A stretch of DNA of 64,000 bases from an uncultured Subdoligranulum sp. (GTDB lineage Bacteria; Bacillota; Clostridia; Oscillospirales; Ruminococcaceae): the NCBI GenBank assembly GCA_945830575.1, contig CALZZE010000015.1, forward strand, positions 1 to 64,000, read 5' to 3'. The notes below the pieces were generated by a model. It did not search any database. It had not been told where the DNA came from and saw only the letters and a list, made by a program, of their open reading frames with translations. The position numbers and the translations under genes are program-made. Positions 46,557 through 49,021 of the stretch are shown here, one piece after another (positions within the stretch are counted from its first letter, which is position 1; every line of letters begins with the position of its first letter).

Positions 46557-46583
46557 TTAGCACTCTTTGCTCCTGAGTGCTAA
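46557..46583. promoter_or_regulatory. CIRCE element (HrcA operator)
   Basis: TTAGCACTC-N9-GAGTGCTAA, perfect arms. Confidence 0.97.
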
Positions 46584-46587
46584 AACC

Positions 46588-46615
46588 ATTATACCCCAAC
46601 TTTGCCGCCTGTCAA
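46588..46615 (-). promoter_or_regulatory. hrcA operon sigma-A promoter
   Basis: TTGACA-16-TATAAT on the minus strand. Confidence 0.8.
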
Positions 46616-46659: not shown

Positions 46660-46696
46660 AACAGGGGAGCCGCCCCCAAACGGCTCCCCCTGCTCC
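46660..46696 (-). terminator. spoVT terminator
   Basis: GGGGGAGCCG tttggggg CGGCTCCCCTGTTTTG on the minus strand. Confidence 0.75.
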
Positions 46697-47239
46697 TCAC
46701 GCTTCCAGCCAGCGGGCCAGAAAGCTGGCCGCCGTGGCGATGGCGTGGACGGTCTCGGCGGCGGGCGGCGCGTCCTTGTCGGTGCCGGACAGCAGCACCC
46801 CGCCCTCCATATCGCCCCCCGCAATGATGGGCGAGGCGCACAGCAGCCGCCGTTCGCCCCGCTCCAGAACTCTGGCACGGCGGGACGGGTCCGCAGGGGC
46901 CACGTACTGGGTGCGCAGCGCCAGCAGACCCTCCAGCTCAGCGCTGATGGCGCGGCCCAGCAGCTCGCTTTTGCCCTGCCCGGTGGCGGCCACCAGCTTT
47001 TCGCGGTCGCACACCATCACGGGGCGGCCAAGGCTTTTGGTCAGCACCTCGGCGTATACCGTTGCCAGCTGCTCCAATCCCATCATGGGGGAATACTTTT
47101 TGAACACCACTTCCCCGTCGGCGGCGGTATAAATTTCCAGCGCGTCCCCCTGCCGGATGCGCTGGGTGCGGCGGATCTCCTTGGGAATGACCACCCGCCC
47201 CAGCTCGTCAATGCGTCTTACGATTCCTGTGGCTTTCAT
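46697..47239 (-). CDS. spoVT: stage V sporulation protein T
   Basis: MKATGIVRRIDELGRVVIPKEIRRTQRIRQGDALEIYT AbrB-type domain plus GAF-like C-terminus. Confidence 0.92.
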   Translation of the reverse strand: MKATGIVRRIDELGRVVIPKEIRRTQRIRQGDALEIYTAADGEVVFKKYSPMMGLEQLATVYAEVLTKSLGRPVMVCDREKLVAATGQGKSELLGRAISAELEGLLALRTQYVAPADPSRRARVLERGERRLLCASPIIAGGDMEGGVLLSGTDKDAPPAAETVHAIATAASFLARWLEA

Positions 47240-47241
47240 AG

Positions 47242-47294
47242 AAAAAACCTCCGTTTTACAGTCTGCTGTGCTGGTAGCATTTGTAAAACGGAGG
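47242..47294 (-). promoter_or_regulatory. spoVT leader hairpin occluding the SD
   Basis: 13 bp perfect stem CCTCCGTTTTACA/TGTAAAACGGAGG, then TTTTTTCT and ATG. Confidence 0.8.
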
Positions 47295-47304
47295 GGTTTT
47301 ATGC
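47275..47304 (-). promoter_or_regulatory. candidate sigma-G-like spoVT promoter
   Basis: GCATA(47304-47300)-18-AATGCTA(47281-47275). Confidence 0.4.
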
Positions 47305-47314
47305 AGGGTTTTGG

Positions 47315-47343
47315 TTGCGGTCTGCGCAATTTGGCTTTATAAT
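47315..47343 (+). promoter_or_regulatory. NUDIX gene promoter
   Basis: TTGCGG-17-TATAAT. Confidence 0.7.
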
Positions 47344-47364
47344 GGTGGAAAAGGAGGGTCTGCC

Positions 47365-47844
47365 ATGCTGCAAACCACATTGTGCTATCTGGAAAAGGAC
47401 GGGCAGTATCTCATGCTGCACCGGGTCAAAAAGAAAAACGACGTGAACCACGACAAATGGATCGGCGTGGGCGGCAAGTTCGAGCCGGGCGAGGACGCGC
47501 TGGCCTGCGCTTTGCGGGAGGTGCGCGAGGAGACCGGCCTGACGATGCAGTCGCCCCGTTACCGGGGCGTGGTGGATTTCACCTGTGACCCGTGGCCGCC
47601 GGAGCAGATGCATCTGTTCACCTGCACGGAATTTTCCGGCGAACTGACGGACTGCGCCGAGGGCACGCTGGAATGGGTGGACAAGGACAGGGTGTGCGGC
47701 CTGCCCATCTGGGAGGGAGACAAGCTGTTTTTTGAGCTGCTCAACCAAAACGCGCCGTTTTTCCATCTGGAGCTGTTCTACGCGGGGGATACGCTGCGCC
47801 GGGCGGTGCTGGACGGGAAGGAGCTTATCCCCGCAGAGCGCTGA
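47365..47844 (+). CDS. NUDIX hydrolase (8-oxo-dGTP diphosphatase-like)
   Basis: GGKFEPGEDALACALREVREETGL Nudix box. Confidence 0.92.
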   Translation: MLQTTLCYLEKDGQYLMLHRVKKKNDVNHDKWIGVGGKFEPGEDALACALREVREETGLTMQSPRYRGVVDFTCDPWPPEQMHLFTCTEFSGELTDCAEGTLEWVDKDRVCGLPIWEGDKLFFELLNQNAPFFHLELFYAGDTLRRAVLDGKELIPAER

Positions 47845-48529
47845 CTTCCTCCGGGGTCAGTTCCCGCCACTGACCGGGGGCGAGGGAAGTGTCCAGCGCC
47901 ACGCCGCCGATGGACAGCCGGTGCAGGGCGTTGACCCCCGCGCCGTACACGCCGAACATCCGTTTGATCTGGTGGTACACCCCCTGCCGCAGCGTCACCT
48001 TCACCACACAGGGGTCCTCCCCTGCCGGTTCCACCCGGGCGGGGGCCAGCGTCTGGCCGTCCGCCAGCGTGACGCCCGCCGCAAATCCCGCCTGCATTTC
48101 CTGCGTCAGCGGCGTGTCCAGCGTCACCAGATATTCCTTGGGCACGTGGCGGCCGGGGGCCAGCAGGTCATGGGCCAACGCGCCGTCGTCGGTGAGCAGC
48201 ACAAACCCTGTGCTGGTTTTGTCCAGCCGTCCCGCCGGGAACAGCTGCCGCCGGGGAAACGCCGCCGCCACAAGGTCGGTGACGGTGGTATCCCGTTTGT
48301 CCCGGCTGGCGGAGACCACCCCATCCGGCTTATTTAGCATGATATACACAAATTCCGCGTGGGTCAGCGGCGTGCCGCCGCAGGCGACCTGCGCGGTTTT
48401 CTCGTCGATCTGCGCATCCGCCTTTTTGCAGACCGTGCCGCCCACCGTCACCTGTCCCTTGGTGATGCGTTTGCGGCTCTCGCTGCGGGGGATGCCCAGT
48501 GCCTCGGAGAGAAACTTGTCCAGCCGCAT
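47825..48529 (-). CDS. rsuA: 16S rRNA pseudouridine synthase (RsuA family)
   Basis: N-terminal S4 domain; AGRLDKTSTGFVLLTDDG motif. Confidence 0.88.
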   Translation of the reverse strand: MRLDKFLSEALGIPRSESRKRITKGQVTVGGTVCKKADAQIDEKTAQVACGGTPLTHAEFVYIMLNKPDGVVSASRDKRDTTVTDLVAAAFPRRQLFPAGRLDKTSTGFVLLTDDGALAHDLLAPGRHVPKEYLVTLDTPLTQEMQAGFAAGVTLADGQTLAPARVEPAGEDPCVVKVTLRQGVYHQIKRMFGVYGAGVNALHRLSIGGVALDTSLAPGQWRELTPEEVSALRG

Positions 48530-48532
48530 CGC

Positions 48533-49021
48533 TCAGCCCTCCGCCGTGATGGGGGCCGTTTTGCCCCGGGTGAGCCGGATGAGGTCGGCGGGGGCGCACT
48601 CGATCTGGGTGCCGATGCGCCCGCCGGACACCATGATGGTGGGCTTGTCAAGGCAGCTTTCATCGTACACTGTGGCAAACTGCTTTTTCATGCCCACCGG
48701 GCTGCATCCTCCCCGGATGTACCCGGTGACCTTGTTGATGTCCGCCACATGGATCATCGCCACGCTCTTGACCCCCGCCGCTCTGGCGGCCTTTTTTAAG
48801 TCCAGTTCCGCCAGCACCGGCACCACGAACACATAATAATTCCGGTCAGCCCCCTGAGTCACCAGCGTCTTGAACACCTGCGCCGGGTCCTGCCCGGTGA
48901 GCCGCGCCACGCTGGCCCCGTCCACCGCCTGCCCCTCCTCATGGGGGTATTCGTGGGCGGTGTAGGGGATTTTGGCCCGCTCCAACATTCTCATGGCGTT
49001 GGTTTTCGCTTCTTTTGCCAT
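48533..49021 (-). CDS. ybaK: Cys-tRNA(Pro) deacylase YbaK/EbsC family
   Basis: VFKTLVTQGADRNYYVFVVPV and GYIRGGCSPVGMKK motifs. Confidence 0.9.
   Translation of the reverse strand: MAKEAKTNAMRMLERAKIPYTAHEYPHEEGQAVDGASVARLTGQDPAQVFKTLVTQGADRNYYVFVVPVLAELDLKKAARAAGVKSVAMIHVADINKVTGYIRGGCSPVGMKKQFATVYDESCLDKPTIMVSGGRIGTQIECAPADLIRLTRGKTAPITAEG

Follow-up and report, generated by a model that had tools for sequence, protein, structure and literature searches.

The window, by which we mean the whole 64,000-nucleotide stretch of DNA analyzed here, carries on its minus strand spoVT, with hrcA-grpE downstream of this gene and its terminator and a divergent NUDIX gene on its other side (Table 1). 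This order, NUDIX-spoVT-hrcA-grpE, is conserved across the genus. The NUDIX and spoVT promoters stand back-to-back, and their -35 boxes are ~10 bp apart (window 47300-47320). At window 46560-46615 on the minus strand, the hrcA promoter is a perfect TTGACA-16-TATAAT, and a CIRCE-like repeat, TTAGCACTC-N9-GAGTGCTAA, comes after it. Beyond NUDIX lies the pair ybaK-rsuA, with rsuA ending tail-to-tail with NUDIX, inside the NUDIX 3' end. The minus strand of the spoVT leader reads GCATA AAACC CCTCCGTTTTACA AATGCTACCAGCACAGCAGAC TGTAAAACGGAGG TTTTTT CT ATG and contains an inverted repeat whose arms pair perfectly (13/13 pairs), with the SD inside the 3' arm.

Table 1. Features in and around the spoVT leader, in window coordinates.
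Feature	Position	Strand	Basis or remarks
spoVT, 180 aa, AbrB-type forespore regulator	46700..47239 (ATG 47239-47237)	-	TIGR02851 full length, 164.7 bits, below the curated cut-off of 235.9
Terminator 3' of spoVT, 12-bp stem	46663..46690	-	
T6 tract, between SD and ATG	47247-47242	-	Sequence; candidate terminator tail
3' arm TGTAAAACGGAGG, includes SD GGAGG (47252-47248)	47260-47248	-	Sequence, folding
Loop, 21 nt	47281-47261	-	Sequence; includes the -10 element and, by inference, the start of transcription (~47269-47267)
-10-like element AATGCTA	47281-47275	-	Same promoter comparison as the -35-like element; 18 nt from GCATA
5' arm CCTCCGTTTTACA (anti-SD)	47294-47282	-	Sequence; lies between the -35 and -10 elements of the spoVT promoter; shuffle p ~0.001
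-35-like element GCATA, forespore-type promoter	47304-47300	-	Match in 28/32 congeners, 17-18 nt spacing
NUDIX gene, divergent, likely start ATG 47365	47311..47844	+	Promoter TTGCGG 47315-47320, 17 nt, TATAAT 47338-47343
rsuA-type pseudouridine synthase, co-directional with spoVT	47825..48529	-	Overlaps NUDIX 3' end (47844)
ybaK (Cys-tRNA deacylase), co-directional, immediately upstream of rsuA	48533..49021	-	TIGR00011, 187.2 bits

An earlier note on this DNA had reported the 13-bp perfect stem with its 21-nt loop, the SD in the 3' arm, and TTTTTT CT ATG after it, as well as a GCATA-18-AATGCTA promoter-like pair and a divergent NUDIX gene with its own TTGCGG-17-TATAAT promoter, all of which we recovered in the sequence. 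The A4/T4 runs flanking the arms lengthen the repeat to 19 nt at 89%. Folding of the leader RNA gave a z-score of -4.3, with 0/200 shuffles equally stable. Furthermore, when the promoter segment was shuffled 1000 times with the 3' segment held fixed, none of the shuffled segments paired the SD equally well (0/1000, p ~0.001). Against a background of 325 SD-bearing starts, taken from 464 kb of the same genome, the spoVT SD stem ranked second, the first rank going to an ordinary terminator before a mis-called TTG start. A chance origin of the inverted repeat is unlikely. A covariance-model search of the leader against Rfam 15 returned no family, the top chance match reaching 22.3 bits versus a gathering value of 60. 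As in intrinsic terminators, a U-tract (T6) directly follows the stem; a terminator scan did not pick up the hairpin, whose 21-nt loop compares with a short-loop criterion of 3 to 8 nt.

Promoters of the sigma-F/sigma-G type consist of a GNATA-like -35 element, a spacing of 17 to 18 nt, and a CANNCTA-like -10 element, and the GCATA-18-AATGCTA pair of spoVT fits this pattern. A GNATA-like box and a CANACTA-like box, 17 to 18 nt apart, form a single pattern at the same position in 28 of the 32 congeners compared. The spoVT gene of C. difficile is under sigma-F and sigma-G (PMC3789822; PMC7438776), and the window genome encodes sigE-sigG, spoVAC/AEB, and spoIVA. The spacer of the forespore-type promoter of spoVT is also the 5' arm of the hairpin. 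Judging from the promoter position, the RNA should start 6 to 7 nt past the -10 element, in the loop, and the 5' arm should then be absent from the RNA of spoVT's own promoter. By computation, opening the SD takes 14.0 kcal/mol when the 5' arm is present but 4.9 kcal/mol in an RNA that starts in the loop and lacks it. The earlier proposal that such a start leaves the SD unpaired agrees with this fall in cost, but it goes too far in its wording: folding keeps the SD of the short RNA partly paired in a weak GGTTTTT/GAAAGCC hairpin, which accounts for the residual 4.9 kcal/mol, and "unpaired" is therefore too strong a word.

The same note had held that no co-directional gene lies upstream of spoVT. 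This is wrong, as rsuA and ybaK run in its direction, one gene removed, with no strong terminator between. A search for a strong terminator between rsuA and the spoVT hairpin returned a single weak candidate (47376-47357). Since ybaK-rsuA are co-directional with spoVT and followed by no strong terminator, an antisense transcript could arrive at the spoVT hairpin; read-through from ybaK-rsuA that crosses NUDIX in antisense and reaches this hairpin first is plausible in the window species. Of the species examined, only this one has ybaK-rsuA beside NUDIX. Congeners G003, G008, G009, G017, G022, and G027 carry a good terminator close to where NUDIX ends, after the gene upstream of NUDIX.

The spoVT leaders of 32 congeners were compared, a strong stem being defined by a shuffle p of <=0.003. 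Only three of them showed a strong stem between the SD and the promoter spacer: the window species (G000; 13/13 pairs, p 0.001), G022 (14 pairs, three of them G-U, p 0.001), and G007 (15 pairs, one mismatch, p 0.003). With these three and one borderline case (G012, p=0.008), conservation of the stem across the genus was rejected. In G018 and others, the SD of spoVT pairs with sequence antisense to the SD of NUDIX, which was judged a trivial outcome of having two divergent SDs. The 5' arm begins 26 to 30 nt ahead of the start in all three stem-bearing species, that is, at the same promoter position. These species are not sisters in a tree of SpoVT, HrcA, GrpE, and NUDIX. The stem may be ancestral with many losses, or it may have arisen repeatedly; the shared TTTTACA/TGTAAAA core would favor ancestry.

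Uncompensated drift of the arms among relatives, one of the two outcomes that the earlier note would have counted against its reading, is what most congeners display, whereas G000, G007, and G022 compensate. Three base pairs have changes on both sides across these species. A compensation test found 84.2% of cells paired versus 77.8% in shuffles (4/500), and 20/500 for a second measure, values that come from only three sequences, of related species that are not independent; sliding the arms against each other reduces every compensation measure. When arms were swapped among the three species, the own 5' and 3' arms paired best in each row (-20.4, -15.0, and -15.7 kcal/mol). The same tendency was found over 31 spoVT leaders, where segments from one leader pair better than segments exchanged between leaders (p=0.0012), with relatedness and base composition still contained in this test and in the two before it.

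The three stem-bearing species differ in what surrounds the pairing. The loop measures 21, 32, and 40 nt, and a U-tract follows the stem in G000 and is missing from G007 and G022 (GGGGGATTTC, GGAGGAATGA). Given that only G000 has a U-tract, that loop length varies, and that the SD always lies within the 3' arm (3/3), the feature kept is, to judge from these sequences, the pairing of the SD rather than termination or an operator of fixed spacing. It is unlikely, in our view, that the main role of the hairpin is intrinsic termination of ybaK-rsuA antisense transcription, with an overlap with the SD that merely saves space. Such a terminator would account for the GC-rich stem base followed by T6, for the lack of any other strong structure of terminator type on the minus strand downstream of rsuA, and for T6 and the position of ybaK-rsuA being both peculiar to the window species. 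However, the 21-nt loop is longer than is usual in terminators, SD pairing is retained without a U-tract in the other two stem-bearing species, and all three have the 5' arm placed exactly within the promoter spacer. The earlier assertion that this is not simply the terminator of the previous gene needs correction for the window species, where termination is plausible because of T6 and ending the antisense RNA is a likely second effect of the hairpin.

Complementarity by accident, between a pyrimidine-rich spacer and a purine-rich SD leader in the ancestor of a few lineages, would leave the stem without any function. The absence of the stem from most congeners would suit this explanation, and the TTTTA-type spacer also occurs in stemless species, from which part of the 5' arm would be promoter sequence. 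We nevertheless hold it to be improbable, given shuffle p values of 0.001 to 0.003 in three species, a pyrimidine block (CCTCC/CCTTCC/CCCTT) confined to the stem-bearing species, and own arms that pair better than those of other species. Perfect palindromic arms around the -10 element would also suit an operator in the DNA, bound by a dimeric or tetrameric regulator such as SpoVT itself, but this reading is disfavored by arm spacing that varies from 21 to 32 and 40 nt, by arm sequences that change with compensation, and by a 3' arm that tracks the SD, and we judge it very improbable.

We consider, with moderate confidence, that the spoVT hairpin is probably a promoter-embedded, cis-acting read-through silencer, a reading that draws on the stem, the promoter, the arm position, and the compensation and supposes both transcription from upstream and an effect on translation. 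A long RNA entering from upstream, which in the window genome would most likely be the ybaK-rsuA antisense transcript running through NUDIX, would carry both arms; its CCTCC would pair with the spoVT SD, and spoVT would not be translated. In the window species, the U6 after the hairpin may additionally end this transcript. RNA made by the sigma-F or sigma-G polymerase would start in the loop, lack the 5' arm, and be translatable, the net effect being that SpoVT would be made from its forespore promoter alone. Counting in favor of the silencer, the window species has no strong terminator from rsuA to the hairpin, unlike several congeners, in which one is present where NUDIX ends, and a similar arrangement is predicted at sigG and spoVAC of the same genome. 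Counting against it, the strong stem is restricted to 3/32 congeners, the SD of the short RNA is weakly paired, and G022 has a terminator ahead of NUDIX that makes read-through there less obvious.

Across the genus, a conserved -10-like CCATACT of the sigG leader forms part of a 5' arm, opposite a 3' arm that holds the SD region, and the inner stems vary. Opening the SD is costlier by at least 2 kcal/mol when the RNA includes the -10 element in 25 of 28 sigG leaders, and the two segments of one leader pair better with each other than with those of other leaders (p=0.0002); in the window genome (contig C6), the arrangement is predicted to be similar, with an opening-cost difference of 5.7 kcal/mol. 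The sigG leaders of nearly all congeners look like the same read-through lock. The spoVAC leader of the window genome (contig C38) reads CATACTACCCCC AAA GGGGGTTTTGGTATG, where a -10-like CATACTA and then CCCCC pair with the SD GGGGG and the start codon, at an opening cost of 11.3 versus 1.6 kcal/mol (difference 9.7). Several congeners show the spoVAC pairing in a shifted register (GGCATA/TATGCC, CTAC/GTAG). The median opening-cost difference was 3.6 for sigG (p=0.002) and 2.4 for spoVAC (p=0.005) versus 0.3 for a control formed by the sigma-A NUDIX promoter of the same genomes, a comparison with only 11 control members, inferred sigG and spoVAC starts, and species that are not independent. 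The spoVT leaders as a set showed no difference from this control (p=0.29). A lock of the spoVT architecture is predicted across the genus to be frequent at sigG and to occur in part of the spoVAC leaders. It is possible, though we remain doubtful, that in the forespore genes of the genus as a group the -10 element or spacer of each promoter doubles as its anti-SD, in a regulon-wide check on the origin of the RNA that spoVT, sigG, and spoVAC would exemplify and whose pairing register would have been re-invented between lineages.

Elsewhere in the window genome, ~50 nt after a yihY-like gene on contig C3, an 11-bp stem with a 21-nt loop carries an SD in its 3' arm, followed by TTTTGT-ATG. The 201-codon ORF downstream of it had no match in an NCBIfam search; it presumably resembles a cut-off spore cortex-lytic protein. 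Searches for SASP (PF00269) and the Gpr protease (PF03418) gave no match in the window genome, which is 99.9% complete and has sigE, sigG, spoVA, and spoIVA.

Compartment-specific genes need to be silent when neighboring vegetative operons read through, and a lock that the promoter itself provides would require no extra factor. Interest is added by what seems to be a recurrence of the lock at three forespore genes (spoVT, sigG, and spoVAC) in a single genome, as modeled here. If the lock does recur across forespore genes, it would partly explain how leaky transcription is prevented from setting off forespore programs too early, and it would extend a mechanism that is proven in the case of T4 lysozyme and has been proposed at sigG of B. 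subtilis.

Among known systems, the long early transcripts of T4 gene e (and of soc, 49, and I-TevI) fold the SD or AUG into a helix, while the RNA from the late promoter, which lies within the DNA for the 5' strand, lacks that strand and is translated; the effect, demonstrated by experiment, is ~100-fold (PMC3014915). At spoVT, likewise, the SD is computed to lie in a helix of the long RNA, and its own promoter overlaps the 5' strand. Gene e differs from spoVT in being an experimentally proven early/late switch of a phage, with a late phage sigma factor. In B. subtilis, a hairpin of 20+ bp at sigG (spoIIIG), which cannot form in the RNA of sigG's own promoter, is proposed to keep read-through RNA from being translated (PMC5942855). 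This large hairpin shares with that of spoVT a forespore gene and, as predicted for spoVT, a restriction to read-through RNA. The source of read-through differs, being the sense operon spoIIGA-sigE in B. subtilis sigG and, at spoVT, what would be antisense transcription via a divergent gene, and the possible terminator tail is a feature of spoVT that the large hairpin does not share. A second, small RBS hairpin of B. subtilis sigG forms in the own-promoter RNA and damps expression 2- to 4-fold (PMC5942855); there the SD is paired to the leader, as in spoVT, but the spoVT stem should be unable to form in own-promoter RNA. With intrinsic terminators, the spoVT hairpin has in common the GC-base stem and U6, and it departs from them in its long loop and in a U-tract that the other stem-bearing species have not kept. 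By analogy, the spoVT hairpin most likely works like T4 gene e and the large hairpin of B. subtilis sigG, which are its closest precedents.
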